Assembly (NCBI GenBank): GCA_022826515.1
Contig: JAJDUT010000018.1
Span: 1 to 37,415, forward strand
Direction of reading: 5' to 3'
Source: Candidatus Latescibacterota bacterium
GTDB taxonomy: Bacteria > Latescibacterota > UBA2968 > UBA8231
Length of the DNA stretch: 37,415 nt
Under the pieces are notes generated by a model. It was not told the DNA's origin. It saw only the letters and a list, made by a program, of their open reading frames with translations, and searched no databases. Positions 10,881 through 37,415 of the stretch are shown piece by piece. The stretch's first letter is position 1. Each line of letters begins with the position of its first letter. A program made the translations under genes and the position numbers.

Positions 10881-10976
10881 ATGGCCCGTGTTACGACGCA
10901 GGTCAAGAGAAGAGGTCGCTGTCCCCAAACCACCACACTCCCGATAAGGGATATTGGAAGGAGTTGTAGCTTATGA
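10881..10976 (+). CDS. Possible 31-residue leader peptide
   Basis: An ATG with GGAGG nine bases upstream opens a 31-codon frame (MARVTTQVKRRGRCPQ at its start, rich in basic residues) whose TGA overlaps the ATG of the CBM9-like gene as ATGA. The frame runs across the right arm of the 19-bp inverted repeat. Arrangement and ribosome site suggest a translated leader or coupling peptide, but length is close to what chance allows and no homologue is recognised. Confidence 0.25.
   Translation: MARVTTQVKRRGRCPQTTTLPIRDIGRSCSL
10937..10955 (-). repeat. Right arm of the 19-bp perfect inverted repeat
   Basis: Exact reverse complement of 10675-10693. It ends two bases before the AAGGAG ribosome site (10958-10963) of the CBM9-like gene, so pairing of the two arms in a long read-through transcript would place a 19-bp stem next to the translation start. 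Confidence 0.85.
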
Positions 10977-11869
10977 AACGTCTATATAGCCTTTTGGCTA
11001 TGGGCCTGATTGTGGGCCTGACGAGCGGTGCCAGTGCGCATATTGGCGAACAGGTTTACCTGCTCTTTGAGCTCCCTGAAGCTGATCTGGCCGATATCGA
11101 TCTGCGTGACGCCAGCATAGCCGACTGGGAAGATGTAGTTGGTGATGCACAGTTGGTCACCACTGATTTCTTTCAGGACCCGACTGTGGGCGACGGTGCC
11201 CAGTACGATCCGGCGGATCTAGACTATCGCATTTGGCTGGCTTGGAATGGCAATGCTGGTACCATCTGGATGGGCATGGAGCGCATCGACAACATCTACA
11301 TCAACGAGTACGCTGGCGGTGACTTGGGTAGCTTGTGGAGGCAAGATGCCATTGAGTTCATGCTTGATGGCGACCACACTGGTGGCGATTACACTGGTTC
11401 GGCCGATGAGAACTGGACCGACGAAGAGAAGGACCTGAATAACAACCGCACGGCTCAGCAGTACGTGGCTATCGGTGATACTCCTGACGGCCGCCACGTC
11501 GGCTATCTGGGCAAAGGCACCGAGTGGGTCAACGCGCTGCCCTACGCTGATGGCGGCGGCGGTTCGACCGGCGACGGGCCGACGACCACAATCATTGAGT
11601 TCTTCGTCACGCCTTTCGACGACCTAATCTGGAACAGCCCAGACGACAGCGTAGCTTCGCCGCTGTTCGATGGTAAGATCATTGGTTTCCAGATTTCGGC
11701 TCAGGACATGGATGAGGCGCCGAGCGATTACCGCGCTTTTCACACCTTGTCTGGTCAGGCTGCGACTTGGCGCTTTGCCGAGCGCTTCGTCGATGGTCGC
11801 CTAGTCGGTGCCGGTGGCACGGCGGTCGAAGAAGACTCTTGGGGCCGCATCAAGGCCGCGTTTGAGTAA
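10973..11869 (+). CDS. Secreted CBM9-like protein (paralogue A) with C-terminal WGRIK motif
   Basis: A 298-residue protein with a signal peptide (MKRLYSLLAMGLIVGLTSGASA). The body resembles family 9 carbohydrate-binding and related beta-sandwich domains: a variant DGD-W start (DASIADWEDVVGDAQ), a WNGNAGTIWMGMERIDNIY strand pair, and the acidic DAIEFMLDGDHTGGDY segment. It is clearly paralogous to the protein at 35277 (shared DAxEx(2)xDxDHxGG, LSGQ and RFxDRF blocks). The final 16 residues are TAVEEDSWGRIKAAFE. AAGGAG nine bases upstream supports the ATG. Its own promoter and strong terminator suggest a separately regulated, perhaps abundant, secreted protein. The ligand is unknown; a role in binding surface glycans is inference from the fold. 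Confidence 0.75.
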   Translation: MKRLYSLLAMGLIVGLTSGASAHIGEQVYLLFELPEADLADIDLRDASIADWEDVVGDAQLVTTDFFQDPTVGDGAQYDPADLDYRIWLAWNGNAGTIWMGMERIDNIYINEYAGGDLGSLWRQDAIEFMLDGDHTGGDYTGSADENWTDEEKDLNNNRTAQQYVAIGDTPDGRHVGYLGKGTEWVNALPYADGGGGSTGDGPTTTIIEFFVTPFDDLIWNSPDDSVASPLFDGKIIGFQISAQDMDEAPSDYRAFHTLSGQAATWRFAERFVDGRLVGAGGTAVEEDSWGRIKAAFE

Positions 11870-11894
11870 CAGCAACGCCCTGTTGTTTTTCTAA

Positions 11895-11940
11895 ATTTTA
11901 AGGAGAGGGGGAATACGTCCTCCTCTCCTTAAAATCATTT
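11895..11940 (+). terminator. Intrinsic terminator after the CBM9-like gene
   Basis: ATTTTAAGGAGAGG (11895-11908) and CCTCTCCTTAAAAT (11922-11935) form a perfect 14-bp stem with a 13-base loop, 25 bases after the stop codon, followed by CATTTT. The A/T edges make it work in both directions. Confidence 0.75.
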
Positions 11941-11941
11941 T

Positions 11942-11968: not shown

Positions 11969-12048
11969 CTTCCTCGCGTCATAATACCTCGCTCTTGGTT
12001 TGCCATGCTAAGACCTAGGCAGCGCAAATTCTACCGGGGAGTAACGGA

Positions 12049-14529
12049 ATGAGAATTGGGATTTGTGTCGCCGCGTTGGTTTTGGGCGGTTGGGTAAATG
12101 CTGCTGCGGAGTTGCGGCTGTTCGCTATTCCGGGCAATACAACTTGGATTGATGCCAAGCAGGGACCGCTTTCAGAAAATCGCTTCATTGAAGTAATAGA
12201 CCTTGAAAGCTATGAAAATGGCATTGGGCCTATTACCCCATCGCGTGTAGTTCCCGTTCCCGAAGTTCCTCTCGCATTAACCGCCGCCGAAGTGGATGCA
12301 GCGACCGATTCCAGCCTCTTTGCCTTCTCGCTTAATGTAACCAGAGCCGATGTAGTAGCACCGACTGATATCGAACTCGAAGATGGTACGACCGTAAAGG
12401 CGGGCACGGTCTTGGTTCCTCGTTGGAGTTCCTTCCCGCGTAGCTTAGAGGCCGTCCAGTTATTGCGTCGGGCTGGCATTACCGAGATTGAGGCCATGAT
12501 CAACGTGGCCGAGTCCTTCCCCCGCCCTCCCAGCGGCGACAAGTACAATAAGGGACTCAATCTCACGCCTCTCGGCATTTTTGAAAGGGCTTTGACTGAC
12601 CAGCGACTCCAGGAGGGCTTATGGCACGTTTTCGATGGCGATCCACTGACCCATTTCGAGCGCATTGACCGAGTTGGGCAGGACGTCAAACAGCAATGGA
12701 TTCTCTATATCGACTTAGGACGCTACTTTCCAATCCGCTTGTTTCGCCTCTATCCCAGTCTTGAAGAGCCCTCGCGAGTTTCAGCTTATACCTTCTATAG
12801 GGGCCTGCCTGGGACTGAAAAAGTGATTGCCGGTCTTAGTCTCGACGATCCGAGTGTTGGGCAGTTGGCGTTCCCTAGGTTTACTAAGATAGCCTCGACT
12901 TTTCCGACCTTCGTTCCCGAGGCGAGCGCACCAGTCAATCTGGAAGACACCATTGCCGTCGCCTTTGAGCCGCAAGCTTACATGCGCTATGCTCGCTTTG
13001 ATTTTCAGACTCCGCTGGATTACGATTTAGCTGAAATGGAGTTTTTAGCCGACGGCTTTGTGCCTGAAGCGGTTTATACTTCCAATGCACTACCGTTGCC
13101 TCCAGCGACCTTAGGGAGGATTTTCTGGGACGAGCGAAAAATTGGCGATCCCAACGGGTCGCGCGCTATCGTGCGCGTACAAACAGGCGTCAATCCCGAG
13201 CCAGAGGTGCTTTTTCGCGTCAACAAATTCGAGCGCTCGGTGGAGTGGAAAGAGGAAGGGGCGAGCATCACCGACCAACGGCTTGGCTCCAAGACCTTCG
13301 GCCAGGAAGTGGACCTAAACGATGAGGCTTTCAATCTGGAGGCCCGTGAGATTTTCAGTGCCGCCTTGCCCGAAGACCGAGCGCGAGTTCGCCTAACCCG
13401 CGCTGAGTACAAGTCCCTGCCGGGCAATGAGCGGCGCCACGTCGAGCCCGATCTCGAATTCTGGAGTGGTGTTCAGTTGGCCAACAATGGCCAGTTGATC
13501 AATGCGCCGAGTGGTCGGCCCTTCATTCAGATTGAGGTTGAGTTTTTGAGCGAAGATCCTGCGGCGGCTACGATTATTAGCAATTTGCGTTTTGAATACT
13601 CCGCTCCACAGATCACGGACCAGGTCTTCGGCGAGATTGCTCCGGCTGTGGATGTGATTGCTGGCCGCGATACCTCCTTTGTGCTGGTCCTCAACGCTGG
13701 ACTAGGGGCTGAGAACAATGGGTTCAACCGCTTGCAGGTTTTTACGCCGGCGCGTGCGGAAGCCATTGAAGGGGTGGAAGTGGATCTAGGCGACGGAGAA
13801 TTCCTGAACTTGGAACGAGTGGATGGCGAAGACGAGATAGGCGAGGGACAGTTTCGAGAATTGTACGTCGGCGATGATCAGTTCGTCGTTGGTTTTCCAA
13901 CCATAGGTCCAGCTGAGGAAGGCCAAGTCCGCAACGCATTGGTAAAGGTCCGCTTTCAGGGCCGGGTCATTGACTTCCGCACTAACTTCGCTGCCAATGT
14001 ATTTTTAGACACTTTAGGTGCAGAAGCAGAGCGGCGCTTTACCAGTAGCGGCATTTTGGCGCTTGGGGGTAATGAGAGTGCACTTGATACGCTGGCCATT
14101 TTTTTGCCACAGCGAGTGGAGGACAATGACGTGGTAGATTTCGCAGCGACGGACCAGCTCTCAGATCGCAACTCCCTAGCGGTGATCGCCGATATTTCAG
14201 CGCAGAGCGAGAACCTAGTGACCAATTTCAAGGTCGTGCCCAATCCTTTTACACCCAATGGCGACGACGTCAACGACGAAGTAGTCGTGACTTTTGACGT
14301 CCAGCGACTGCTAACGCCTAAGCCTTTATATCTGGAGATATTCGATTTGAACGGTCGCCGCAGGCGGCTCATTGAGCGCCAGCTATCGTCGGGGGGATAT
14401 TCGCAGCAGTGGGATGGCCGCGACGATGCTGGACAGGTCGTGCCTCCGGGGCTATACCTATTGCGCATTTCGACCGACGCTGATCATGCAGGTGAGGCCC
14501 AGACGCGCATCATTTCTGTAGCGTATTAG
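12049..14529 (+). CDS. Large secreted discoidin-like protein with FlgD/gliding-motility C-terminal domain (SP1)
   Basis: An 826-residue secreted protein. A signal peptide (MRIGICVAALVLGGWVNAAA) is followed by an N-terminal region, a discoidin (F5/8 type C)-like segment starting FDGDPLTHFERID at about residue 195 and ending DLGRYFPIRLFRLYPS, then several beta-rich segments (FIQIEVEFLSEDPAAATI; GFNRLQVFTPA), and a C-terminal domain of about 95 residues from NPFTPNGDDVND (about 732) to the final IISVAY. That last domain combines the FTPNGD motif of gliding-motility C-terminal domains with a FlgD-Ig-like DGRDDAGQVVPPGLYLLRI strand. Such ends often act as cargo signals for the type IX secretion system. 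Paralogous to SP2 and SP3. GGGGAG upstream supports the ATG. Confidence 0.78.
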   Translation: MRIGICVAALVLGGWVNAAAELRLFAIPGNTTWIDAKQGPLSENRFIEVIDLESYENGIGPITPSRVVPVPEVPLALTAAEVDAATDSSLFAFSLNVTRADVVAPTDIELEDGTTVKAGTVLVPRWSSFPRSLEAVQLLRRAGITEIEAMINVAESFPRPPSGDKYNKGLNLTPLGIFERALTDQRLQEGLWHVFDGDPLTHFERIDRVGQDVKQQWILYIDLGRYFPIRLFRLYPSLEEPSRVSAYTFYRGLPGTEKVIAGLSLDDPSVGQLAFPRFTKIASTFPTFVPEASAPVNLEDTIAVAFEPQAYMRYARFDFQTPLDYDLAEMEFLADGFVPEAVYTSNALPLPPATLGRIFWDERKIGDPNGSRAIVRVQTGVNPEPEVLFRVNKFERSVEWKEEGASITDQRLGSKTFGQEVDLNDEAFNLEAREIFSAALPEDRARVRLTRAEYKSLPGNERRHVEPDLEFWSGVQLANNGQLINAPSGRPFIQIEVEFLSEDPAAATIISNLRFEYSAPQITDQVFGEIAPAVDVIAGRDTSFVLVLNAGLGAENNGFNRLQVFTPARAEAIEGVEVDLGDGEFLNLERVDGEDEIGEGQFRELYVGDDQFVVGFPTIGPAEEGQVRNALVKVRFQGRVIDFRTNFAANVFLDTLGAEAERRFTSSGILALGGNESALDTLAIFLPQRVEDNDVVDFAATDQLSDRNSLAVIADISAQSENLVTNFKVVPNPFTPNGDDVNDEVVVTFDVQRLLTPKPLYLEIFDLNGRRRRLIERQLSSGGYSQQWDGRDDAGQVVPPGLYLLRISTDADHAGEAQTRIISVAY

Positions 14530-14564: not shown

Positions 14565-17500
14565 ATGAAACGGCTGCTAAAGCGGAAGATGGCTCTCTTC
14601 GTAGTACTATTTCTGCCTAGTTTCTGTCTGGCTCAAACGGATGCCTATCGGCTTTTCGGCAGCTCGATCCGCGTGGATCGGGCCTCGCACTGGGAAAACT
14701 GGATTTATCAGAACGACTTGGTTTCCCAATTGAACGTGCCAATCCGCGATGCGGACATTTTCCGAGTTGATGCCGATGGGCTGCGGCCGACTTTCTTTCG
14801 CCGCAATATCAACGTGGCCCCGACGGCTGTCGATTTTACCTATCCTGATTTGGTCCGCGCTAACGGCGATCTCGTCTCTGGGGGGGCGACAGCCAAATCC
14901 AATAACGCCCTGGCCAATAATATCATCGATGGCGATTTGAGCACCTTTTGGGAACCGGACACGCCGATCAGTTTTGCGAGCCGCCTGACTCGTCCTAGAG
15001 ACTTCCATCTCGACGGTCTGCGCGACTGGGAAATTGAAGTTGATCTGGGGCGGCTGGTCTTTGCCGATAGCCTGACGATTATCTTTCCCGCTGGCCAGTT
15101 CGAGGACGAGTTCCTCGGCGAGCCGGTTAAGGCCTTTGTGCTTTTCGCCTCGATGGGTGAGCGCTTTCCCTTTCCCTTGGGTAACAACCTCAAGTTTTCC
15201 GTCATAGGGCAAGTCTCTACCGGCTTCGTTGCCGGTAAATTGGCCCAGTGTGTACGCGATGAAAGCGCGGGCTACGCTGGCGAAACCCGCTGTGAAGGTG
15301 GGGGAGGAGGTGAGACCGGTGAAGTGATGCTGGTTCCGATGCCTGGGACTGAGGGGCGCTATGTGCAGATGACCTTCCCGCTCTTGCCGCTGGATCGAGC
15401 CGACTGGGACTTGGATGGCCGACCCGATATTAGCGGCGCTTTCATCCATTACGTCCGCATTAAAATTACGGATTCAGACCTCTGGCGCGACGCCTTTTTG
15501 GGAACGGGCGAAGAGGCACGCCTTGCCTATGAAGCATTACCCCAAGAACAGCGCGGTGCGGTTGTCTATCAGCGCCAGACAGCCGGTGGCCTACTCGTGG
15601 AACTCCAAAGCGACGCCAATCTGACGGCCGCAGAAAAGTATCAAACCCTGCCCGAGGAGAAACGCGGTCCGATCCTCTATTATAGCAAGGAGGTTCCCCG
15701 GATTTCTGAGGTTCAGGTCTGGGCTAAGGGTGACAACTACGCACTGCAACCCGAAAAGCGCGGCGGTGCCTCGTTTGAAAACGGCGGTTTGGGTGCGCCC
15801 AATTTGTCCACGGATGGGCTATACGACTCGGAGTGGGTAGCCAATACGTGGTCGCCGGTGTACCTCAAGGGCACGGCTTGGTACGACTTAGGGGCTGTGT
15901 TTTGGGTCGATAATGTTTCGGTGGTCAACAAGCGCATTAACCAGAGCCACCAAGGGGCCTTCTTGGGGCCAGATATCTTGGTCTCCGATGGCACACTGCT
16001 CAAGCCCGTGAGCATGGAAGACCGCGAGGATTTTCCTCAGCTCGAAGAGTCGCTCAAGTGGGACAACATCATTAGCGAGGAACACGTCGATAACCACGGT
16101 CCGGTAGTGCGCATTTTCCGCGAGACTTTCCCTTGGCGCAAGATACGCTTTTTGCAAATCCGCGACATCGACGTCACCGGGAATCAATCCGGTCGCTATG
16201 GTGCGCTGGCGACTTTAGCTGAGATCCAGCTTTACGGTGAGGGGTATCCGGTGAGCGTGTGGGCGTACTCGCCACCGATTACGCTGACCGATTCGCGCGG
16301 CAACTTCATTCGCAAAACCTTGCCGCGTATCGCCTGGGAAGGCGATGTCATCGTCCGCGAGACCGATCCGTTCACCGGTCAAGCTAGCGAACGGATCGAG
16401 CCGCTGGATCTCCACCCCGATGTCCGCTTGCAGGTACAGACCCGCACCTCGGATCAGACGGACACCAACTTCACGTACTATCAGGTCGTTACTGTTGCTG
16501 GCAACGAAGAGCGCGAGGAAGTGACAAAAGAAGCGTACGACGAGATTGCCTTGCAGTGGACGGCTTGGGATATCTGGCAGACCTTGCCCGCTAGCCGGAA
16601 ACATGCCTCGCGTACCGACGATGATGGCGACGGGGTCACCGACGAGGATCCGATTGACCTGATTGACAACGATGGCGACGGTAAAGTGGATGAGGACGGC
16701 AAAAAACTGCGCCGGGCACCGCGCTCCAGCTTTGCCAAAGACGGCGAACTGGCATTTGTCGGCTGGAGCGAATGGAGTGAGAGCTATTTGCCGACCAATG
16801 GCGTCAACGAGGCGACGATCACCTCGCCCAATCCGCGCAAGTTCGTTCAGGTGCGGGTCAATCTCTCTTCAGAGGATCCCTTTAAGACGGTGCGCATCCG
16901 CGAGTTGCGCGTTGAGTTGGCCCCGCCGCTGTCGCTGGAACTGGCCGGCGAGTTGGCACTTCTCACCGACGAGGGAGCAACGCGCGTGCCGACCGACTTG
17001 AGTGTGCAGACCTCAGACTATACGCCGCCGCGCAATATCGATCCGCTCGCGTCGCAGCAGTTTGCTTATTTCATCCGCGCTGCCGAGCCCGACCCGACCG
17101 ATGCGACCGTGCGCGGCGGCTTTAACGAGGTGCTGGTCGTCGCGCCGCGCGATGCGCGCTTGATGGGGGTGCGCTTGGGGCAGGTCGCTATCGCTCAGAC
17201 GTCCTCGCTGCTCAACCCAGAGGAAGTGCTGACCTCGGCGACAACCACGAAGTTTGATCGCGCCTTTGTCCTCGACGACGACGGAGTCTTGCGCGATGCA
17301 GATGGCGAGATATTGGAACGCATGGCGACAGGCGCGGATTCGATCTGGGTGCGGTTCCCCTTTTCGCTCAATGCCGATCTGCCGGCTGGTCAACACGCCC
17401 TCATTGAGGTGCAATTTGAGTCGCAGAGCTTCCGCGAGGGCATTGAATTCGCCTCGTTTGTGCGGTCTTCAGACTCGGAGGAAGGCGTATTTCAACGAGT

Positions 17501-17900
17501 AGATACCGCCGCTAAGGATGCGACCGAGTTGGTGGATTCTTCGACGGCGCAGGTCAGCTTGATGGCGCTGCCGGGGTCTTTGATCCAAGACGTAGTGCTA
17601 TCACCGATCTTTACGCCCAACGGCGATGGGATCAACGATGAACTCTTGGTGCATTTCGTTTTGCTGAAGGTACAGGAGGAGCGTCCGTTAGACGTTGCAT
17701 TTTACGATTTGGGAGGACGCTTGGTAGGTCAAGGTCAAGGCTCGGCGGTTGGTGGCAAGGTAGGGACGCAGGCGTTTGTATGGGATGGGCGAAATATGGA
17801 TGGACAGCTCGTGCCGCCGGGGATCTACCTCTGTCAGATCAAGCTAGAAGCCGATGATCAAGCCAACAAATTGACGCGTCTTGTGCACGTGGCCTATTGA
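14565..17900 (+). CDS. Large secreted discoidin-like protein with calcium-loop pair and FlgD-like C-terminus (SP2)
   Basis: An 1111-residue protein with a signal peptide ending near SFCLAQ. Discoidin-like signature IDGDLSTFWEPD begins near residue 121, followed by DWEIEVDLGRLVFADSLTIIFP. Two aspartate-rich calcium-loop repeats (DDDGDGVTDEDP and DNDGDGKVDEDG) lie at about 684-712, the same unit that occurs eight times in SP3. The stretch KFVQVRVNLSSEDPFKTVRI matches SP1. The C-terminal domain starts at IFTPNGDGINDE (about 1015) and ends LTRLVHVAY. Same operon as SP1, 35 bases apart, with GAAAGGAAA before the ATG. Likely exported across the outer membrane or displayed on the surface. Ligand unknown. 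Confidence 0.78.
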   Translation: MKRLLKRKMALFVVLFLPSFCLAQTDAYRLFGSSIRVDRASHWENWIYQNDLVSQLNVPIRDADIFRVDADGLRPTFFRRNINVAPTAVDFTYPDLVRANGDLVSGGATAKSNNALANNIIDGDLSTFWEPDTPISFASRLTRPRDFHLDGLRDWEIEVDLGRLVFADSLTIIFPAGQFEDEFLGEPVKAFVLFASMGERFPFPLGNNLKFSVIGQVSTGFVAGKLAQCVRDESAGYAGETRCEGGGGGETGEVMLVPMPGTEGRYVQMTFPLLPLDRADWDLDGRPDISGAFIHYVRIKITDSDLWRDAFLGTGEEARLAYEALPQEQRGAVVYQRQTAGGLLVELQSDANLTAAEKYQTLPEEKRGPILYYSKEVPRISEVQVWAKGDNYALQPEKRGGASFENGGLGAPNLSTDGLYDSEWVANTWSPVYLKGTAWYDLGAVFWVDNVSVVNKRINQSHQGAFLGPDILVSDGTLLKPVSMEDREDFPQLEESLKWDNIISEEHVDNHGPVVRIFRETFPWRKIRFLQIRDIDVTGNQSGRYGALATLAEIQLYGEGYPVSVWAYSPPITLTDSRGNFIRKTLPRIAWEGDVIVRETDPFTGQASERIEPLDLHPDVRLQVQTRTSDQTDTNFTYYQVVTVAGNEEREEVTKEAYDEIALQWTAWDIWQTLPASRKHASRTDDDGDGVTDEDPIDLIDNDGDGKVDEDGKKLRRAPRSSFAKDGELAFVGWSEWSESYLPTNGVNEATITSPNPRKFVQVRVNLSSEDPFKTVRIRELRVELAPPLSLELAGELALLTDEGATRVPTDLSVQTSDYTPPRNIDPLASQQFAYFIRAAEPDPTDATVRGGFNEVLVVAPRDARLMGVRLGQVAIAQTSSLLNPEEVLTSATTTKFDRAFVLDDDGVLRDADGEILERMATGADSIWVRFPFSLNADLPAGQHALIEVQFESQSFREGIEFASFVRSSDSEEGVFQRVDTAAKDATELVDSSTAQVSLMALPGSLIQDVVLSPIFTPNGDGINDELLVHFVLLKVQEERPLDVAFYDLGGRLVGQGQGSAVGGKVGTQAFVWDGRNMDGQLVPPGIYLCQIKLEADDQANKLTRLVHVAY

Positions 17901-20696: not shown

Positions 20697-20706
20697 GAGG
20701 TCTCCC

Positions 20707-21497: not shown

Positions 21498-21538
21498 AAC
21501 TGCGCGGTGCCGCTGGGCAAGCGGTACCGCGCAGTTTT
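21498..21538 (+). terminator. Strong intrinsic terminator closing locus A
   Basis: A 17-bp GC-rich stem (21498-21514 with 21520-21536, one G-U pair, five-base loop) ends in TTTTAT. It lies 33 bases after the lipoprotein stop and only 20 bases before the PPIase start codon, so either the PPIase promoter lies within or just after it, or read-through occurs. Confidence 0.82.
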
Positions 21539-21557
21539 ATACATAGGTGAGAAGGTT

Positions 21558-26963: not shown

Positions 26964-26964
26964 A

Positions 26965-28467: not shown

Positions 28468-29798
28468 TGCGGGGCATTCTCTTGCGCGGATAGCTGCCGT
28501 CGGGCCTCGGCGATTTTGGCTTGCAGAGTCTCATTGGTCACCCCACCGGACGGAACGTTTTCCCAAAGCGCAATGGCCCGTGCGAATTCGCCGCGGCGGG
28601 CGTGGATATCGCCGAGCAATATGTGAGCACTATAGAGCTTTGCGTCTATTTCGATAGCCCGCTCGACAGCCGCCTGCGCTTGGTCCAGTTGATCCATTTC
28701 GAGGAACACATTGCCGAGATTGGAGTAGTAAAAACCCGTAGATGGGGCGAACCGCACGGCCCGCTCGTATTGTCTGAGGGCCTTTTCTAGTTGGCCTTGC
28801 TTGTGAAGGATTAGGCCCAGATTATTGTGACTTTCGGCTAAAGTTGAGTCGTGGCTCAATGCTTCGAGGTAATAGCGCACCGCTAAATCGTCCTTGCCTC
28901 GGCGCTGGAGCAGCGTGCCCAATCCTTGGTACCCCAAGCCATAGGTCGAGTCGATGAGTATGGACTGGCGATAGTGCTCGACGGCCAGTTTGAGACGCCC
29001 AAAGCGACTGTAGAGGGCGGCGAGATTGGAGTGGGCTTGGGGTTGGTCAGGGTGCTGGCGCAGCGCATCTTGATGGGGTTTGAGTTGGGCATTTTGTTCG
29101 TCCAAGATGCGCGCGCGCTCAAGGGCGCGTTGCCCCTCTGCGGCGCGGCCCATGCGCAACAGGGCCTGCCCGATTCCGAGGAATGCGGTCGGTTCGTGCG
29201 GACTGAGGTGTGCGACTTGGCGCAGTTGGCGCTCGGCTTCTTGGTAGTTGCCTAACTTTAGGTTCACTTGACCTAGCTGTAGTCGAGCTTGGAGGTGGGT
29301 GGAGTCGGCAGTGACGATGGCGGCGAAAATTTCGCGGGCCTCTTGTAGCTGGCCTTCGCGCTGGTGGATAACGCCTAGTATGTAGCGTGCTTCAACCGCG
29401 TTGGGGGCTAGTTTCAGTGCCTCGGTGAGGAGTTGGCGAGCTTCCTCTACTTTGCCGTGTACATCATAGAACATTTTGCCCAAGGCGATGCGCGGACCAG
29501 CGTAGTCGGGTTTTAGTTCAAGTGCTTTCTCAAACTGAGTCTGCGCTTCGGCAAAACGACTCTGGGCGTGCAATACAACGCCGAGATAGTAATGGTATTG
29601 GGGGTTGTCTGGGGCTTGTTGCAGTGCCTGACGATAGGCATGCTCGGCTTCGGAAAAGAGGCCGCGGGCTTGGAGTGCTCGACCGGTGGCAAAGGTCTGG
29701 GCCGCCGAGTCGGTGGGCGGGGCGGGAGCTTGGGGTGGATCGGGTGTGTCGCGGGTACAGGCGGTACATAAGACCAAAAAAAATAGAACAAAGCGCAT
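28464..29798 (-). CDS. TPR-repeat lipoprotein
   Basis: The ATG at 29798 is preceded by GGAG and gives a proper signal (MRFVLFFLVLCTACTRD, lipobox CTAC); an in-frame TTG at 29906 would lie inside the small gene at 29803 and lacks support. The 444-residue product has a proline-rich linker (DPPQAPAPPTDS) and then about eleven TPR units to near the end, for example AEHAYRQALQQAPDNPQYHYYLG. Related in style to its downstream neighbour, suggesting an internal duplication of a TPR lipoprotein gene. Probably anchored in the envelope as a scaffold. Confidence 0.85.
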   Translation of the reverse strand: MRFVLFFLVLCTACTRDTPDPPQAPAPPTDSAAQTFATGRALQARGLFSEAEHAYRQALQQAPDNPQYHYYLGVVLHAQSRFAEAQTQFEKALELKPDYAGPRIALGKMFYDVHGKVEEARQLLTEALKLAPNAVEARYILGVIHQREGQLQEAREIFAAIVTADSTHLQARLQLGQVNLKLGNYQEAERQLRQVAHLSPHEPTAFLGIGQALLRMGRAAEGQRALERARILDEQNAQLKPHQDALRQHPDQPQAHSNLAALYSRFGRLKLAVEHYRQSILIDSTYGLGYQGLGTLLQRRGKDDLAVRYYLEALSHDSTLAESHNNLGLILHKQGQLEKALRQYERAVRFAPSTGFYYSNLGNVFLEMDQLDQAQAAVERAIEIDAKLYSAHILLGDIHARRGEFARAIALWENVPSGGVTNETLQAKIAEARRQLSAQENAPQ

Positions 29799-29802
29799 AG
29801 TT

Positions 29803-29979
29803 CTACTCCGGTATGAGGCGATTGACGCCTCGGTGAATGACGTAGTGGTGGTCGGCCAGCACGGCGCGAAAAACCTGACACTCGCCACCTGGCCAAGTAA
29901 TTTCAATAAAGAGTGGCTCAGTACTGAAGACGGGTGCCGCGCAAGAAAGAAGTAAAAGAGCTTGGAGGTGGCTAGACAA
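29803..29979 (-). CDS. Small secreted peptide resembling the end of an ASPIC/UnbV domain
   Basis: A 58-residue frame filling the gap between the GT39-TPR gene and the TPR gene. It starts at TTG (29979) with AGGAGG four bases upstream, that site overlapping the previous stop (TAGGAGG), and stops four bases before the next ATG. The N-terminus is signal-like (LQALLLLSCAAPVFS) and the rest, IEITWPGGECQVFRAVLADH, aligns with the C-terminal strand of the ASPIC domain in the protein at 25242 (LEVRWPSGRVEQF). So it looks like an isolated ASPIC tail exported as a mini-protein. The tight spacing on both sides argues that it is really translated. A remnant of a former larger gene is the alternative. Confidence 0.68.
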   Translation of the reverse strand: MSSHLQALLLLSCAAPVFSTEPLFIEITWPGGECQVFRAVLADHHYVIHRGVNRLIPE

Positions 29980-29987: not shown

Positions 29988-32078
29988 CTATGGCGATTTG
30001 AGGCGGCGATAGGCTTCGTCGAGCAGACGTTGCGCGTGGGCGGAGGGACCTCTCGCTAGCACTTGGCGCAGCCGGTCAATGGCCGCGGCGTGGTTTCCAT
30101 TTTCGAGTTCGATAAGCGCGAGGTTGACGTGGACGTCTGGGTTGTCTGGAGCCAGTTCTAGAGCTTGAAGAAAATGCGTTCGCGCCGCTTGAGTGCGCCC
30201 AGCGAGCAGGTGCAGGGCACCGATGGCGTTTAGGGCCTCGGGCCGTCTTGCGAGAGATAGGGCTTGGTGGTACCGGCCTAGTGCCGCCTCGGCTTGCCCG
30301 GCCTGCTGTAAGGCCCTCCCCAGTTCGTAGTGCAGCCAGAAATCCCGTGGCTGCCAAGCAAGCGCCCTCTGTAAGTGAGTTGCGGCCGTGGCGTATTGTC
30401 CTTGGCGATAGAGCAGGCGGCCGTAGTAGTAGTGGGCCATGCCGGACTCTGGATCGCGTTCGAGGGCGCGGCGCAGATATACTTCGGCCTGCTGTGGCTT
30501 ATTGGTCACTAGGTAAATCCGGCCTAGGAGGACGCGAGTGTCGGTGCGCCGGGGATTTTCCGCTAGAGTCTGGAGGGCCTCGCGTTCGCTTTTCTCATAG
30601 CGCTCTTGGTGAAAGTACGCCACGGCTAGATTGTGGCGGGCGTAATTGTACTCTGGGTCCAATTCCAGTGCTCGGCGCGAGTAACGCGCAGACAGGGCGT
30701 AGTCTTGCTTGCGCAGATGCACCTCGCCGAGGTCGAAGTAGAGCTGAGCGTCTTTTTCAGTTGGCGCGGCTTCGGCAAGATTGCACAGGACCAATAGGCC
30801 CCCGAGGGGTAGGGCAAGCACTGTAGTGCGGATATAGGCTCTGCGGCGCACGCCTAGATAGAACTGAAAAGTGGCAAAAGCAGCAAAAGCGATCAGCACC
30901 GGCACGACTGGCATGCGGTAGCGAGCTACCGGAAAGAAGAGTACGACCGAGGCCATGTATACTAGAGCGTAGAGTCGCAGCAAGGCAATCGGTGGCGTCC
31001 ACTTTCCCCTCATACTCAGCCCCAAGCCAAGTAAACTCAGGGGGCCGATAAGGCCGAAGGGGATCGACACGTGCCAATCCCAGAGCAAGAGACTCAAAAT
31101 CCGCGAGTGTTGGCGGGCGTAGTATATGTCTTGATTGCGCTTGGTCTCTGGGCCGCTCCAAAAGTGGAATACCTTTTTGCCGAGCAGACCGAGATAATCA
31201 AGGGGCTGAGTGGTTATGTAATTGAGGGCTTTGTCTAAGAAAAAGGCCGATTGGGCGGCTGCGGTCTTATGCCCAGAGTTTTCCGCCTCGGCGATCATGG
31301 TTTCCCACTGCATACCCGGACGCAGCGAGACCGTGCGCTCGTAGTCGGCGTTATTGCCGATGTAGAAGTTGATACCAGCATTGGAGGAGATGAAGACGAG
31401 GTCCGACTCAATAGTCCAGTTGCGATAGGTAACGGGCAGGATAACCAAGGCTATGGGAACGATAAAAGAAAACAGGGAACAATAGGCAGATGTACGTCGG
31501 TGCCACAGTACCCAGGCGCAAAAGGCCGCGATAAAGAGCAAGATAGTAGGGCGAGTCAGAGCCGCAAGGCCCGCGATGAGGCCGGCTAGCACCCAGTCGC
31601 GCCCGCGATCGCGTCTCCATGCGATCAACAGGCCGTATAGGAGCAGGAGGTTGAGGAAGACTTCCATTGGCACGGCCAATAGCTCGCCCTCAAAGTAGAG
31701 AAAGGAGCCGCACAAGGCCGCCATGACGCTGGCGATGCGACCGACCTGTTTGCCAAAGGCGTGCCGGGCCAATGCGTACACCAATAGGCAGGAGAGGACG
31801 CCGAGGCCCACGTGTATGAGCCGGATGCCGACGAAGTACGAGGTCGGTAGGAGCCAGCAAACGAACGTCAGCAGGTAGATGTAGAGGGGGGGCTGCCAGT
31901 ACGGTTCGTCTCCTCCCCAGAATGGGTCGCTGGCAAGGGCCTGCTTGAGAAAGGTCTGGGCGTCAACTATGGGCGCGTCGAAGAAGGGGCTGGCGCGATG
32001 TTCCCATAGATAGCCTAGCCGCAGTGCAAGAGCGGCTAGTAGGAGCGCTCCCAAAAAGAAACGGGTGCTGTGCGCCAT
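29988..32078 (-). CDS. GT39-type glycosyltransferase fused to C-terminal TPR domain
   Basis: A 696-residue protein. The N-terminal 430 residues are a polytopic GT-C-fold glycosyltransferase: helix 1 (FFLGALLLAALALRLGYLW) is followed by a loop with DAPIVDAQTF, and the conserved EPYWQPPLYIYLL motif, typical of this group, comes before helix 2; about ten hydrophobic segments follow. From about residue 445 to the end there are seven or so TPR units (AEVYLRRALERDPESGMAHYYYG). The TPR part should face the periplasm and may recruit acceptor proteins, which is inference. No Shine-Dalgarno precedes the ATG; it lies 96 bases after SP3 and could be co-transcribed with it. Confidence 0.85.
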   Translation of the reverse strand: MAHSTRFFLGALLLAALALRLGYLWEHRASPFFDAPIVDAQTFLKQALASDPFWGGDEPYWQPPLYIYLLTFVCWLLPTSYFVGIRLIHVGLGVLSCLLVYALARHAFGKQVGRIASVMAALCGSFLYFEGELLAVPMEVFLNLLLLYGLLIAWRRDRGRDWVLAGLIAGLAALTRPTILLFIAAFCAWVLWHRRTSAYCSLFSFIVPIALVILPVTYRNWTIESDLVFISSNAGINFYIGNNADYERTVSLRPGMQWETMIAEAENSGHKTAAAQSAFFLDKALNYITTQPLDYLGLLGKKVFHFWSGPETKRNQDIYYARQHSRILSLLLWDWHVSIPFGLIGPLSLLGLGLSMRGKWTPPIALLRLYALVYMASVVLFFPVARYRMPVVPVLIAFAAFATFQFYLGVRRRAYIRTTVLALPLGGLLVLCNLAEAAPTEKDAQLYFDLGEVHLRKQDYALSARYSRRALELDPEYNYARHNLAVAYFHQERYEKSEREALQTLAENPRRTDTRVLLGRIYLVTNKPQQAEVYLRRALERDPESGMAHYYYGRLLYRQGQYATAATHLQRALAWQPRDFWLHYELGRALQQAGQAEAALGRYHQALSLARRPEALNAIGALHLLAGRTQAARTHFLQALELAPDNPDVHVNLALIELENGNHAAAIDRLRQVLARGPSAHAQRLLDEAYRRLKSP

Positions 32079-32174: not shown

Positions 32175-34829
32175 TCAATAGACCAGCGATAGGGTGCCCG
32201 AGCGCTCCGTAGAGACGTTGTCCAAGTCGATGGCGAGTCGGTAGAGATAGAGGCCCGGAGGGGCGACTTGGCCTTGGCTGTCGCGGCCATCCCACTTGAT
32301 TTGGAGGCTGCCAGCAGTCGAGTCGTCGGTTTGGATCTGGGCGACGCGGCGACCAGACAGATCGTAGATTTCGAGTTGGACATCGACCTGATTGAGGACG
32401 AGGAAAAGGTCAAAGAAAAAAGTGACCTCGTCGTTAATGCCATCGCCGTTGGGGGTAAAGGGGTTGGGGGCGATGTGGGGCATCCTGACGATTTGGTCGA
32501 TCTCGTCGGCAACTACGAGGAGGGCATTGGTGGCGATGTCGGGGGTGGCGTCCCCGTCCTCGGCCGGTTGTGGAATGGATTCGACATTGGAGCCGCCTTG
32601 GTCGTTCCACACCGAACTGGTGAACTCTTCTGAACCGCGGAAGAGCTTGGAGCGAAAGACGATCTCGATGTTCTGGTCGAATTGGAAGTGCTCAGCCCCC
32701 ATCAAAGGCAGCTTGATGTGCAGTTTGGACGAGCCGGTGCGCGGGTCTGTAACTACGCTTTGGGCAAATTGTCCCAAGCTGTCGGTGCGGCCTTCTGCGG
32801 GGGCGAGGCGGATGGGATGAATCTCGCGCAGCGGATCGGCTCCCGTGCCCGCGGCGATTTCGGTCCAGTCTTGGCCGTCGAAGCGCAAGGTCTCGATGCG
32901 CGTATCCGCGCTGGGGACGGCGATCTCGATCCGGTTGAAGGAGGTGGACTCGCCTGTTTTGAAGAAGGGCCGGACAAAGTAGCGGAACGCTGTTTCCTCG
33001 CCCAAGGTGACGCGGGGAGGGAAAATCTCAGCGACGATCCCCCCCGACACCAGCGGCGCGTCGTAGTCGAACTCGATGAAGTCCAACCGCGCCGCGCTGT
33101 GCTGGGCGGAGTCAAAGAAGATGCGGAACTGGATGTAGCGAGTGCCGCCGGGCAAGGGTAGCTGAACGCCGGTGTTTTGCCATTCGGATTCGGGCAGGCT
33201 CTCGTCGATGAGGGCATCTTTGAGCTTGAACGGGGCCGACCAGAAGCTCCAGCCCAAGAGGCCGTCGTCGCCTAGGTCAACGCCCAGCTCATTGTATTGC
33301 AGTTCGCGCTCGGGGACGCGGCCTTCGGGGATCTTGATCCAGGAAAACAGATCAAGGAGGTTGCCATTTTCGTCTTGGGTATCCGAAAGTCCCGGTCCCA
33401 AGCGGCGGGCGTAGATGTGGGTGTCGGGGGTGTTGCCAACGCGAAATTGGATGCGAACATCGCCATCGAGGCCATCGCGGCTGCCGCGCCAGCGCACCTT
33501 GCCCCAGTTGACCTGCTCACCAGCCACATCGAGGGGAAATTGATTTTCATACGCCTCGCGCTCCGAGCCGGCGAATTGCTCGATCTCGCGGTCGTAGCGA
33601 CGGATACGCGGAGTAGGCGTACCCACGTCGATGATGGCCGAGATGTACTGCCCATCGATGGCGTAGCCGTCGCCGAAATAGCCTGCTTCGGCGGTCTCGA
33701 CATAGGTACCTCTGGGATCCGTCGAGACTATGTCGACGCGGCCAGCCACAAAGGGGGTCGCGAATTGGAAATCCTTGATTACCGGATTGAACTGGCCGTT
33801 GGTAACGGGAACTAGCGTTCTACTCGCTTGGATGGTTTCGGAGCGACTGCTGATCGTGGTGCGATCGCCGTAGCGGATATAGTAATTGGCGATAGTACTA
33901 GCGGGTAAGGTTGGCCGCGGGCGAAAGACGATGCGATTGAGATAGTAGTAACCCATCAGGTTGATGCCAACGCCGCCGCGGTTGTAAATGGCGGAGCCGT
34001 ATCCCGTGCTAAGGTCTCCATCGACGATCAGTTCTGCGTCGACTCGACCGATTACTTGGGCAGTCGCCCAGTGATCGGCCGAGATCGGGTCGGCTATCTC
34101 ACGGCGAAAGCCATGTTCGCTCGGCACCACCATAAAGGGGCGTTGGGGATCCTTGCCGGGGATGATGCCGCCGAACTCGCCGGCCTTGAAGCGCTGGTTG
34201 AGCAAGTAGGCGAGGTTGCGCAGGCTGTCCAGACGCACCGGTCGCAGCCAGGTGGTCACGCCTTGGCCGTGCTCAGGAAGCGACGGGTCTTCGTCGATGA
34301 GTCCGTCGCCATCGTCGTCGATGCCGTTGATGGGGTCTTCGTTGAGTTGGCCGTCCCAATCGTCGTCAAAGAGCGTGTACAACCCGTCCTCATTGAGTCG
34401 GCCATCGCCGTCATTGTCGATCTGAGGATCCGGCCCATCTTCGTCGATGAGCCCGTCGAGATCGTTGTCGATCAGTTCCAACGGGTCTTCGTCAATGAGT
34501 CCGTCGCCATCGTCGTCGATTCTATTGGCTGGGTCTTCGTTGAGTTGACCGTCTCCGTCGTTGTCCACTTGCTCGTCGACAGGATCTTCGTTGATCAGCG
34601 CGTCGTCGTCGTTGTCAATCAGTTCGACCGGGTCTTCGTCGATGCGTCCGTCGCCATCGTCATCGGCGACCAACTCAACAGCCCAGCTACGGCCCAAGTC
34701 GAGGCGACCGGTGACCGGCCGTAGAATCCAGGGATGCACCTCGTCGCCGATCCGCCACCGCTTGATTTCGGCATAGCCATTGCTGAACACAAACGCGACG
34801 CCGAGCACCGCTACCAACAACCTGAGCAT
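32175..34829 (-). CDS. Large secreted discoidin-like protein with eight calcium-loop repeats and FlgD-like C-terminus (SP3)
   Basis: An 884-residue protein with signal peptide MLRLLVAVLGVAFVFSNGYA behind a good GGAGG site. Residues 56-186 hold eight 16-17-residue repeats of the form D-[DN]-D-x-D-G-x-[IL]-[DN]-E-D-P, similar to thrombospondin type 3/dockerin calcium loops. A discoidin-like signature LIVDGDLSTGYG sits at about 268-279. Later segments match SP1 and SP2 (YIQFRIFFDSAQHSAARL; SFNRIEIAVPS). The C-terminal domain runs from NPFTPNGDGINDE (about 789) to GTLSLVY. A surface-displayed adhesin-like or scaffold protein is likely; a type IX-like export route is inference. Faces away from the CBM9-like gene B. 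Confidence 0.78.
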   Translation of the reverse strand: MLRLLVAVLGVAFVFSNGYAEIKRWRIGDEVHPWILRPVTGRLDLGRSWAVELVADDDGDGRIDEDPVELIDNDDDALINEDPVDEQVDNDGDGQLNEDPANRIDDDGDGLIDEDPLELIDNDLDGLIDEDGPDPQIDNDGDGRLNEDGLYTLFDDDWDGQLNEDPINGIDDDGDGLIDEDPSLPEHGQGVTTWLRPVRLDSLRNLAYLLNQRFKAGEFGGIIPGKDPQRPFMVVPSEHGFRREIADPISADHWATAQVIGRVDAELIVDGDLSTGYGSAIYNRGGVGINLMGYYYLNRIVFRPRPTLPASTIANYYIRYGDRTTISSRSETIQASRTLVPVTNGQFNPVIKDFQFATPFVAGRVDIVSTDPRGTYVETAEAGYFGDGYAIDGQYISAIIDVGTPTPRIRRYDREIEQFAGSEREAYENQFPLDVAGEQVNWGKVRWRGSRDGLDGDVRIQFRVGNTPDTHIYARRLGPGLSDTQDENGNLLDLFSWIKIPEGRVPERELQYNELGVDLGDDGLLGWSFWSAPFKLKDALIDESLPESEWQNTGVQLPLPGGTRYIQFRIFFDSAQHSAARLDFIEFDYDAPLVSGGIVAEIFPPRVTLGEETAFRYFVRPFFKTGESTSFNRIEIAVPSADTRIETLRFDGQDWTEIAAGTGADPLREIHPIRLAPAEGRTDSLGQFAQSVVTDPRTGSSKLHIKLPLMGAEHFQFDQNIEIVFRSKLFRGSEEFTSSVWNDQGGSNVESIPQPAEDGDATPDIATNALLVVADEIDQIVRMPHIAPNPFTPNGDGINDEVTFFFDLFLVLNQVDVQLEIYDLSGRRVAQIQTDDSTAGSLQIKWDGRDSQGQVAPPGLYLYRLAIDLDNVSTERSGTLSLVY
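34284..34664 (-). repeat. Eight tandem calcium-loop repeats within SP3
   Basis: About 381 bp of imperfect 48-51-bp tandem repeats coding the DDDGDGxIDEDP units. The same unit occurs twice in SP2 (about 16617-16700). The high similarity of units, for example GATGGCGACGG-type cores, allows copy-number change by recombination or slippage. Confidence 0.8.
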
Positions 34830-35216: not shown

Positions 35217-35236
35217 ACAGCCCTATATATTGAAAG

Positions 35237-35246: not shown

Positions 35247-35276
35247 ACAAATAAAAAGGTTGTTGGTCGAGGTGCT

Positions 35277-36206
35277 GTGGTCGCGTTTGTTTTTTTAGCG
35301 CTAGTGCTACAGATAGCATTAGGCTCGGCTAAGCCGGTTTTGGGTCATTATCCCGAAGGAGTGGCCTATAGAGCCTTTCAATTTCCCGATCATTTAGTTC
35401 CCGTCATTGACGGCGATTTGAAAGATTGGGAAGTTGTAGGAGACTCTTACGTCATATTAACGGGTCAATTTCACGACCTGATTAATCCAGAAGTTGAGGC
35501 GAGCGATTCGGACGATTTTGCCGTTCGTCTCATAGTAGGGTGGAATAAAGCGGAAAACAGGCTCTACATCGCCGCTCAGGTTCGCGATGATATACACCAG
35601 ATTGATCGTCCCCCCGGTAGTACTACGGTACTCTGGGAAGATGATGCGATGGAATTATTTATTGACGCGGATCACTCAGGTGGACAATTCGCCAATTTCA
35701 CTGAGTTGAATCACGAAGAACGGATACAGCGCAATGGAGTTGAAGCCAACCACTTCGTTTTGGCTGGCCCGCCGCCCGACAAGGATTTTTTCGTCAATTT
35801 TTCTGCCGCTGCTTGGTACGCGCTATCCGATGGTCCTTATACCGAGGCGGCGGTCGAGTTTATAGGTGTCTTGGGAGGAGAGGGAATGACAAACTATGAA
35901 GTTATGCTTGTGCCTTTTGACCGCGTCAATATTAATGCGGCCTTTCAAAGCGAAAAGCATATCTTGCGGGAAAATGAAATCCTTGGTTTTAACGTAGAGT
36001 TCAACGATTTTGACGTGCATTCAGTGCTTTTTGATGCTAAGTGGTCGCTTTCGGGCCAACACAATTCGTATCGCTTTTCCGATCGCTTTGCTGACTTGAT
36101 CCTGATGCCGCTAGAGGGTACATTTACGGTCGTGGAGTCGATATCTTGGGGGCGCTTAAAAGCCTCTTTATACACAGAGCGATACCACCGAGGAGTGTCA
36201 GAATGA
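35277..36206 (+). CDS. Secreted CBM9-like protein (paralogue B) with WGRLK motif
   Basis: A 309-residue paralogue of the protein at 10973. Seen: a hydrophobic signal (VAFVFLALVLQIALGSA), the CBM9-type opening VIDGDLKDWEVVGDS, RLYIAAQVRDDIHQID, the acidic DDAMELFIDADHSGGQF segment, and the LSGQ and RFSDRFADL blocks. Near the end it has TVVESISWGRLKASLY, but here 13 residues follow instead of the protein ending there. The GTG start with GAGG four bases away is the only good one, yet the basic n-region expected of a signal peptide lies in frame just upstream (KKVVGR), so a non-standard earlier start cannot be excluded. Overlaps the next gene by four bases. Confidence 0.75.
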   Translation: MVAFVFLALVLQIALGSAKPVLGHYPEGVAYRAFQFPDHLVPVIDGDLKDWEVVGDSYVILTGQFHDLINPEVEASDSDDFAVRLIVGWNKAENRLYIAAQVRDDIHQIDRPPGSTTVLWEDDAMELFIDADHSGGQFANFTELNHEERIQRNGVEANHFVLAGPPPDKDFFVNFSAAAWYALSDGPYTEAAVEFIGVLGGEGMTNYEVMLVPFDRVNINAAFQSEKHILRENEILGFNVEFNDFDVHSVLFDAKWSLSGQHNSYRFSDRFADLILMPLEGTFTVVESISWGRLKASLYTERYHRGVSE

Positions 36207-36949
36207 TGGATTTTACGCGAGTATTATCCTTGGCCTTGATTATCGGCTCGAGTGTGTTGGGCTGTGGGTATAGCTATTACACGGGGCCATTGCAGCCCGG
36301 CCAAGATCAGGCCTCGTCTATCAGTGTGGCAGATGACGGGACGCTGACCTTTGCACAGGATCGCTTTGAAGTGCGGCTCAAGCCGATGACTGACGAGGAG
36401 TTAAACCGCCAGTTTTTCAACAATTCCCAAGCGGGTCCTAAGTCCACAAACCCCTATACCTTTGGCAATACGGTATTTTGGGGGACCGACGAAGAAAAGC
36501 AGCGCTTCACTGTCTTCCGCCTCGGCGTTAAGAATTATGCCTACCCTAAAGTCAAGATTGATCCGAGCAAAATCGTTGTCAAAGCGAGCAATAAGCGCGA
36601 ATATTGGAGCCTCAACTTTGAGCAACTCGACACGTATTATCGCGCCTATGCCATAGGCTATAGGGGCAACGAATATGCTCGCTATCAAGAGCGCCGCGAC
36701 TTGCTGCGGCGGACGATGCTCAAAGACGAGGAGATATTCAGCGGTCAAGAGGCGGAGGGCTTCGTCATTTTTCCCGTGCTCCACCCCGACGTGAGTGATA
36801 TCGAAGTCCAAATACTCGATGTAGTCCTGAGATTTGACTTTCGCAATGAGCCGGTGGAGACCACCAATATTTCCTATAAATTCGTCCGAGATATCGGCAA
36901 GATCTACAAAGACGGTACGGTCGTTCCTAAAGTCGCTAAGGCAAACTAG
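36203..36949 (+). CDS. Lipoprotein of a two-member family (paralogue B)
   Basis: The ATG at 36203 follows AGGAG by seven bases and overlaps the previous stop (ATGA); a TTG at 36146 in frame is unlikely. The 248-residue product has lipobox SVLGC followed by GYSYY and is about half identical by eye to the lipoprotein at 20707, block by block (MTDEELNRQF, NPYTFGN, QRFTVFR, LRRTM, DEEIFSGQEAEGFVIF). The family function is unknown. That both copies sit with a CBM9-like protein and an outer-membrane protein gene suggests a fixed partnership on the outer membrane. Confidence 0.75.
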   Translation: MMDFTRVLSLALIIGSSVLGCGYSYYTGPLQPGQDQASSISVADDGTLTFAQDRFEVRLKPMTDEELNRQFFNNSQAGPKSTNPYTFGNTVFWGTDEEKQRFTVFRLGVKNYAYPKVKIDPSKIVVKASNKREYWSLNFEQLDTYYRAYAIGYRGNEYARYQERRDLLRRTMLKDEEIFSGQEAEGFVIFPVLHPDVSDIEVQILDVVLRFDFRNEPVETTNISYKFVRDIGKIYKDGTVVPKVAKAN

Positions 36950-36983
36950 CCTTTAAGCGAGAACACCAAGGAGGAGTTACATT

Positions 36984-37415
36984 ATGAAATCTCTGAAAAT
37001 GCTTAGTGTTTTAGTAGGCGTGCTGTTCGTCGCCCAATCAAGCGAGGGGGTAGTCAACATTCAGAATGTCGGTTCGGGTGCGCGCGCGCAGGGGTTGGGC
37101 AACAGCTTTGTGGCGGTGGCCGACAACGCCGATGCGGTGTTTGCCAATCCGGCCGGGTTGGGGCAAGTGACCCAGCGTCAGGTGGCCTACACCAATGTGT
37201 CGCTGTTGTATGCAGGCATTGAAGGCGACGATCTGGGGCAGCACGTGGTGTCCTATGCCCAGCCGTTGGGCGATAAGCTGGGTTTGGGTTTGGGCTACGA
37301 GCGGATCGGCTCGTCGCTGATGAGTGAAAATGGGGCGTTTGTATCGCTGTCGTATCAGGTGGAGCGTCGGCTGCAGGTGGGCTTGTCGGCCAAGTATCTG
37401 TTTTGGAGTGTGGGC
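36984..37415 (+). CDS. PorV/PorQ-family outer-membrane protein, N-terminal part (3' truncated)
   Basis: The ATG at 36984 stands behind GGAGGAG and opens a frame that runs off the window after 144 codons. After a signal peptide (MKSLKMLSVLVGVLFVAQSSEG) comes the family mark GSGARAQGLGNSFVAVADNA, then AVFANPAGLG, followed by barrel strands (GLGLGYERIGSS, FVSLSYQVERRLQVGLSAKYLFW). In Bacteroidetes PorV is the outer-membrane shuttle that receives type IX secretion cargo, while related PorQ/UPF0164 proteins have less clear roles. Placed after the lipoprotein in an apparent three-gene operon. Which subtype cannot be told from the N-terminus alone. Confidence 0.85.
   Translation, partial: MKSLKMLSVLVGVLFVAQSSEGVVNIQNVGSGARAQGLGNSFVAVADNADAVFANPAGLGQVTQRQVAYTNVSLLYAGIEGDDLGQHVVSYAQPLGDKLGLGLGYERIGSSLMSENGAFVSLSYQVERRLQVGLSAKYLFWSVG

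Follow-up and report, generated by a model that had tools for sequence, protein, structure and literature searches.

A recurrent gene cassette of Latescibacterota that joins a predicted outer-membrane barrel family to CHU_C-tailed secreted proteins, with a candidate C-terminal sorting tag

Two groups of genes for putative cell-surface proteins, here called locus A and locus B, lie in a stretch of 37,415 nucleotides from a Candidatus Latescibacterota bacterium (contig JAJDUT010000018.1 of assembly GCA_022826515.1; hereafter, the window). The subject of this study is the gene set to which they belong and, in particular, one of its members, a family of large predicted outer-membrane beta-barrels that we call BAR. 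A preliminary description of the same DNA took the loci for two copies of one surface module. The genes that it named are all open frames at the positions given below. Its list of members left out a PPIC-type peptidyl-prolyl isomerase that is part of the set, and the idea of two copies has to be given up, the loci of the window being two among many such loci. All genes of locus A are on the forward strand; in locus B, a gene for a secreted protein (SP) on the reverse strand is followed by three genes on the forward strand. Lengths are in amino acids (aa).

Locus A
10973..11869, forward strand: CBM9-like A, with a signal peptide and a C-terminal tag, TAVEEDSWGRIKAAF, treated further below; paralogue of CBM9-like B
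12049..14529, forward strand: SP1, 826 aa, secreted, with a CHU_C/FlgD-like C-terminal domain and a final Y
14565..17900, forward strand: SP2, 1111 aa, secreted, with a CHU_C-like C-terminal domain and a final Y; BAR directly downstream
17946..20696, forward strand: BAR, 916 aa, predicted member of an undescribed outer-membrane beta-barrel family
20704..21465, forward strand: lipoprotein A, lipobox LFLGC, with a predicted immunoglobulin-like (Ig-like) fold
21507..23219, forward strand: PPIC-type peptidyl-prolyl isomerase (Pfam Rotamase_2, E=1e-17)

Locus B
32175..34829, reverse strand: SP3, 884 aa, secreted, with Asp-rich repeats and a CHU_C/FlgD_ig C-terminal domain
35277..36206, forward strand: CBM9-like B, with a PF06452 match and the tag SISWGRLKAS near its C terminus
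36206..36949, forward strand: lipoprotein B, lipobox SVLGC
36984..37415, forward strand: PorV/PorP-like barrel gene, truncated by the window end

The relationships proposed for these genes were borne out by BLASTP within the window. Lipoproteins A and B (50% identity over 240 aa, E=1e-82) and CBM9-like A and B (30% over 301 aa, E=2e-30) are paralogous between the loci, and the three SPs have a common C-terminal domain (SP1 and SP3, 29% over 374 C-terminal aa, E=3e-32; SP1 and SP2, 27% over 409 aa, E=4e-19; SP2 and SP3, 30% over 194 aa, E=2e-18). The CBM9 label stands for CBM9-like B, which scores above the Pfam CBM9_1 (PF06452) cut-off (26.6 versus 23.4 bits); CBM9-like A matches no Pfam family at E≤1 and bears the name solely because of its similarity to B. 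The closest named records reached with the two lipoproteins are metagenome-assembled genomes labelled Latescibacterota or Gemmatimonadota, one of which encodes an identical lipoprotein A. By eye, the translations of SP1 to SP3 have hydrophobic N termini consistent with a Sec signal peptide. Residues about 50 to 185 of SP3 hold five or more Asp-rich DNDGDGxxDEDP repeats and residues 685 to 712 of SP2 a single unit; such units are known from calcium-binding repeats.

The AlphaFold2 model of BAR, built from 71 sequences (pLDDT 76, pTM 0.75), predicts a large outer-membrane beta-barrel, in keeping with the earlier label of "probable barrel". Counting long strands in the output gives about 22 to 24 barrel strands; a beta-rich insert spans residues ~270 to 420, and an Asp-rich stretch at ~530 to 620 is partly poorly predicted. 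BAR matched no Pfam family at E≤1, no NCBIfam model at E≤0.1 and no PDB sequence. Among the candidates scored, 1,075 are relatives at E≤0.001, and none of the 120 matches listed carries a Pfam domain. Searching BAR, lipoprotein A and CBM9-like A for phage families gave none. BAR occurs in 39 of 64 genomes of the phylum, strongly in families f1, f2, f3, f5 and f6, weakly in f4 and not in f7 to f10; the lipoprotein occurs in 38 of the 64. For the lipoprotein, the model (pLDDT 86) shows a small Ig-like sandwich, to which MPT63, YjhA and YcdA-type proteins are modest structural matches.

We gave up naming the BAR family by structure and claim only a barrel, since many unrelated outer-membrane barrels align to the model with similar scores in Foldseek and VIA-align. 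In Foldseek, the Deinococcus S-layer barrel complex 8agd comes first (E=1.6e-7), and 8ae1 and 7zgx also appear. Together with the size and repetitiveness of the SPs and the Asp-rich repeats of SP3, these rows would suit a surface coat, in which SPs and CBM9-like proteins build a coat or an array resembling an S-layer, anchored by BAR and different from cassette to cassette, for phase or environment. However, the TM-scores of the S-layer rows are low (0.16 to 0.27), many unrelated barrels are comparable, and regular arrays and switching are without support in this sequence analysis. We consider a coat distinctly improbable.

The preliminary description had proposed a conserved association with interchangeable parts, which repeated co-occurrence of the lipoprotein family with CBM9-like and FlgD-tailed proteins in related genomes would support. 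Such co-occurrence is what we found. Among 36 named loci located through the lipoprotein, which are not independent (they include near-identical strains and same-contig pairs, and many are ended by contig ends), a CBM9-like gene is present in 32, a CHU_C/FlgD-tailed gene in 33, BAR in 25 and all three in 21, and the loci show 22 different gene-order strings. Genome-wide counts were made in relatives, and two of these, G050 and G051, are complete single-contig genomes of the same genus as the nearest genome compared with the window (G001). There, observed proximity within 10 kb was set against 2,000 circular shifts. The lipoprotein lies this close to a CBM9-like gene in 11 of 15 cases in G050 and 8 of 15 in G051 (expected, 1.8 and 1.6), and to BAR in 13 and 9 of 15 (expected, 1.9 and 1.8; reached in 4 and 3 of the shifts). 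CBM9-like genes are near BAR in 29 of 37 and 23 of 32 cases (expected, 4.7 and 3.8; reached in 1 and 2 shifts).

G050 has 47 BAR genes in 31 loci dispersed on its 6.3-Mb chromosome, and G051 has 42 BAR genes. CHU_C-tailed proteins are very common, at least 150 per genome (150 were scored of 276 and 234 candidates); therefore, we judged their closeness to BAR by comparing all 31 BAR loci of G050 with nine control regions placed at hand-chosen round coordinates. CHU_C-tailed genes are found in 31/31 BAR loci (87 of 358 genes) versus two of nine control regions (2 of 148 genes). CBM9-like genes (24/31) and homologues of the PPIC isomerase of the window (23/31) are absent from the controls (0/9 each). 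Immediately upstream of BAR, on the same strand, stands a CHU_C-tailed gene in 33 of 47 cases and another BAR in nine. The lipoprotein is present in 11 BAR loci according to the gene caller and near 12 by position; the simple caller dropped one gene overlapped by a neighbouring frame (L216). As read from these loci, each cassette comprises a BAR gene and at least one secreted CHU_C-tailed protein, usually encoded directly upstream on the same strand. Most add a PPIC isomerase and a CBM9-like protein, the next most constant parts; a subset adds the Ig-like lipoprotein, which is not core. The surface assembly first envisaged holds as an association with no published description that we could find; it does not hold with the lipoprotein at its core, and as a physical assembly it is putative.

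Four genes between loci A and B are of types that recur beside BAR; for the ASPIC protein, a TPR protein and the PMT domain, none of the nine control regions has a homologue:

25242..27140, reverse strand: FG-GAP/ASPIC-UnbV protein, a common neighbour of BAR (ASPIC protein in 13 of the 31 BAR loci of G050)
26965..28467, reverse strand: TPR protein, a neighbour type common beside BAR
28464..29906, reverse strand: TPR protein, with homologues in 16 of the 31 loci
29988..32078, reverse strand: TPR repeats together with a PMT_2 glycosyltransferase-like domain; 7 of the 31 loci have a PMT domain

A Pfam search of 101 other genes within 5 kb of BAR gave 86 families, the most frequent being TPR, PPIC, FG-GAP/ASPIC and DUF6784/6785. 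Proteins with DUF6784/DUF6785 account for five of the 101 genes (for example, L209:10371-12308).

BAR resembles SusC/SusD, the polysaccharide uptake pairs of Bacteroidota, in being an expanded family of large barrels that has a lipoprotein and binding proteins close by. BAR could thus be a nutrient channel, with SPs and CBM9-like proteins binding glycans or polymers, the lipoprotein acting as lid or binder, and the many copies serving many substrates. Yet BAR matches neither Plug nor TonB-receptor nor SusD families at E≤1. As for the lipoproteins, A matches no Pfam family at E≤1 and B only DUF7952 at E=0.065, so SusC/SusD identity was rejected for BAR and both lipoproteins. In contrast to SusC/SusD loci, the 25 most frequent of the 86 neighbour families include no carbohydrate-active enzyme (CAZyme), be it glycoside hydrolase or lyase (the other 61 are each on at most five genes), and the lipoprotein is present in only 11 to 12 of the 31 cassette loci. 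We regard an uptake function of this kind as unlikely.

Alternatively, the cassette may have no joint function, its parts being expanded surface-protein families that merely meet in islands of gene turnover. All of its parts are indeed expanded families, and gene order is fluid (22 order strings in 36 loci). BAR and lipoprotein copy numbers correlate over 35 genomes (rho 0.95, uncorrected for kinship; four f4 genomes with weak BAR matches, E 1e-50 to 1e-73, were counted as BAR 0, and candidate number stands for copy number where only 14 candidates were scored), and duplication of whole loci would raise this correlation, as well as the covariation described below. Chance meeting accounts poorly, however, for the same-strand SP-BAR adjacency in 33 of 47 cases, for a periplasmic isomerase in 23 of 31 loci and for the spread of these loci across the chromosome. 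The same set also recurs where the lipoprotein is only 42 to 64% identical to that of the window (L041-L043, L045, L047, L056, L057 and L065). A lack of joint function is, in our view, very improbable.

What the SPs have in common may point to type IX secretion. Their shared tail had been called FlgD-like, and the SP3 domain does exceed the FlgD_ig cut-off (42.2 versus 27 bits); it also exceeds that of CHU_C (35.9 versus 27), with SP1 (26.7) and SP2 (25.7) just below. Of the CHU_C-tailed genes in the BAR-locus and control regions of G050, 84/89 end in Y. A profile search of the PDB with SP2 returned FlgD at the C terminus (best E=5e-4) and weak lipase rows (E of 0.75 and above); F5/8C (discoidin) domains, which we had suspected in the SPs, were not confirmed by it. 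The tail is probably better read as a type IX CHU_C sorting domain resembling that of type B cargo. SprA is present in 63 of the 64 genomes of the phylum (61 over cut-off), including G050 and families f7 to f10, which lack BAR, and full-length PorU matches over cut-off were obtained in 37 of the 64, again including G050. With SprA in 63 genomes and BAR in 39, the phylum has the type IX core throughout, unlike the cassette.

Type B cargo of Flavobacterium johnsoniae and Porphyromonas gingivalis depends on a PorP/SprF barrel or binds to one (PMC12618676, PMC9143113); in F. johnsoniae, the PorP/SprF gene is commonly directly downstream of the cargo gene (PMC12618676), and SprF binds SprB (PMC9143113). 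The cassette likewise has a CHU_C-tailed cargo gene directly upstream of a barrel gene, as in 33/47 cases in G050 and for SP2 and BAR in the window, with SprA in the genomes. Its barrel differs from PorP/SprF: the model has 292 positions and BAR about 900 aa, there is no common sequence, and BAR does not belong to TIGR03519 (PorP/SprF), having no NCBIfam match at E≤0.1. The cassettes of Latescibacterota also differ from PorP/SprF systems in adding CBM9-like, PPIC and lipoprotein genes and in numbering dozens of copies. Given that no PorP/SprF gene scored over cut-off in five Latescibacterota genomes, in a search that ran without a positive control, and that BAR occupies that gene position, our preferred candidate for the SPs' partner in the outer membrane is BAR.

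The reading that we prefer, tentatively and with a confidence somewhat short of even, is a multi-copy cell-surface cassette of Latescibacterota in which BAR is the dedicated outer-membrane partner of SPs exported by the type IX system. The SPs would traverse the outer membrane through the SprA translocon, and BAR would shuttle them or hold them on the surface, as PorP/SprF does for type B cargo of Bacteroidota. The PPIC isomerase may aid the periplasmic folding of BAR or of the SP, and the lipoprotein and the CBM9-like protein would be surface partners. The CBM9-like proteins bear their short C-terminal tag instead of a CHU_C domain.

Several results weigh against this proposal or limit it. 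All three SPs fall below the TIGR04131 type B cut-off (25.4, 16.3 and 15.4 versus 35 bits). The PorP/SprF search lacked a positive control, and a search for GldM, one of the motor/ring components GldK-N, is uninformative, as it matched neither the five genomes nor the controls. Kinship of BAR with SprA was rejected, with a profile-profile probability of 0.2% against three Latescibacterota SprA sequences. Of the CHU_C-tailed proteins (at least 150 per genome), 87 are in BAR loci, and not all are beside BAR. Moreover, covariation lends no support to the idea that BAR recognizes the tail of the cargo encoded next to it: distances among BARs are hardly correlated with distances among these adjacent C-terminal domains (rho 0.12, a value that 76 of 1,000 permutations reach). 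They do correlate with those of the adjacent SP bodies (rho 0.40; 0/1,000) and, unexpectedly, with those of the C-terminal domains that belong to the locus's other SPs (rho 0.51; 0/1,000). Co-inheritance of whole loci would yield the latter two values. Pairing with the SP body, or plain co-inheritance, seems to fit the covariation better than recognition of the neighbouring tail.

Locus B departs from this scheme, as the part of it inside the window has no barrel gene of ~900 aa. Its counterpart in G050 also lacks a BAR of its own, the nearest being that of locus A and one ~32 kb away on the opposite side. In L050, L051 and L054, likewise reached through the lipoprotein, two CHU_C-tailed/BAR pairs precede CBM9-like and lipoprotein genes of the B type; therefore, the window's locus B looks reduced, as if it had lost its BARs and kept a PorV/PorP-like barrel. 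The piece of the latter gene inside the window scores 42 bits for PorV_fam (NF033709). Three full-length relatives match PorV_fam, and less so PorP_fam, across most of their length, but all three are below both cut-offs (76.9 to 84.8 versus 90 bits for PorV_fam).

CBM9-like A and CBM9-like B end in a common tail, which is also found on a third protein of the window:

4980..5435, forward strand: secreted protein of 151 aa, unrelated to the CBM9-like proteins, whose tail is the same tag, DESTWGKVKDLFR

On CBM9-like proteins the consensus is TAVExxSWGxIK, with a broader form TAVExx[ST]W[GA]x[ILV]Kxx[FL], and the tag stops 3 to 19 residues short of the C terminus. In an alignment of 18 CBM9-like sequences, mean column entropy is 1.12 bits in the tail versus 2.01 in the rest, and ten columns are invariant, including W, G and K in the tail. 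The tag is kept in all 120 listed relatives of the 151-aa protein, a listing made up of close relatives only.

Searching the DNA of G050 for [ST]WGx(hydrophobic)K gave 81 sites, compared with 12 for the reversed pattern. In 70 of the 81, the site is no more than 20 residues from the stop of a frame that is 60 aa or longer; 65 of these 70 frames have an N-terminal hydrophobic signal sequence, as called by a hydrophobicity rule and not by a trained predictor. Positions outside the search pattern are conserved in the 70 as well (59 have T at -6, 44 have A at -5, 63 have V at -4 and 46 have E at -3). Without signal and tail, the 65 proteins fall into 19 clusters lacking detectable similarity (the largest of 27, 13 and 6); Pfam searches of 31 of them gave PD40 propellers (5), Cache domains (4) and FGE-sulfatase domains (2). 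Two tagged proteins of G050 are matched by GldK, a ring lipoprotein of the type IX system (TIGR03525; best E=3e-25), and the match is probably due to an FGE-sulfatase domain. In the BAR-locus and control regions of G050, 19 of 25 CBM9-like genes carry the strict tag and five of the remaining six a near form, with A replacing G after W or G replacing S before W; the strict tag is on none of the 89 CHU_C-tailed, 47 BAR and 11 lipoprotein genes.

In other families, pattern sites at a C terminus were 15 of the 20 examined (of 29) in G003 (f2), 2 of all 13 in G008 (f4; three were flagged and one, L178, was dropped because the stop falls inside the motif) and 0 of the 15 examined (of 24) in G039 (f10). 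Site counts exceed the control at least threefold in f1, f2, f5 and f6 and slightly in f3, f4 and f10, with no excess in f7 to f9. The excess rises with BAR number (rho 0.82 over 35 genomes and 0.80 within f1, uncorrected for kinship), and 20 of the 31 BAR loci of G050 contain a strictly tagged gene. We nevertheless rejected a tie to BAR by neighbourhood: around an array of tagged genes at 4.656 to 4.669 Mb of G050, no BAR was found within 170 kb, and the tag therefore also occurs outside cassettes. Tandem tagged secreted proteins distant from BAR were seen at L101, L103 and L106 (G050 4654500-4670500, 1887000-1891000 and 4731500-4734500); these array proteins, probably PD40 propellers, have near-identical ends, NGLGG..PAWQP...SWGRIKSL.

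LPXTG and PEP-CTERM are C-terminal sorting signals, conserved motifs on otherwise unrelated proteins with signal sequences. The tag shares this arrangement with them and with TIGR04183/TIGR04131, but it lies too near the C terminus for a subsequent transmembrane helix or a domain of ~100 aa, and on 31 tagged proteins no sorting domain was among the 25 families listed of 83 (Pfam) or of 56 (NCBIfam). We take it for a candidate signal at the C terminus for sorting or docking, which would serve in place of the CHU_C domain. It may further mark a second surface-targeting route beside type IX, in which the tag docks Sec-exported proteins at the outer membrane and the receptor is in the cassettes, with BAR as first candidate, and the tag would then represent a C-terminal sorting signal of a new type; this we hold to be possible, though rather doubtful.

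A text search of the literature for the tag, in six forms, found no paper. We likewise found no description of the cassette and no paper combining Latescibacter with type IX secretion in a search that left most subscription journals outside its scope. The parts consulted of three papers mention porins and TonB receptors (PMC4454575), count eukaryote-like domains and CAZymes (PMC12993501) and report Latescibacteria as enriched in signal peptides (PMC7081726); those parts give no account of the barrel family, the cassette or the tag. The type IX system has been called exclusive to Bacteroidota (PMC12618676).

With 47 and 42 genes in the two complete genomes, BAR counts as a highly expanded family of outer-membrane proteins, and it has neither name nor annotation. 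As a putative SP partner, it would give the type IX system a different candidate cargo partner, outside Bacteroidota. If the tag is a true sorting signal, the proteins that an uncultured phylum sends to its surface would become readable from sequence.

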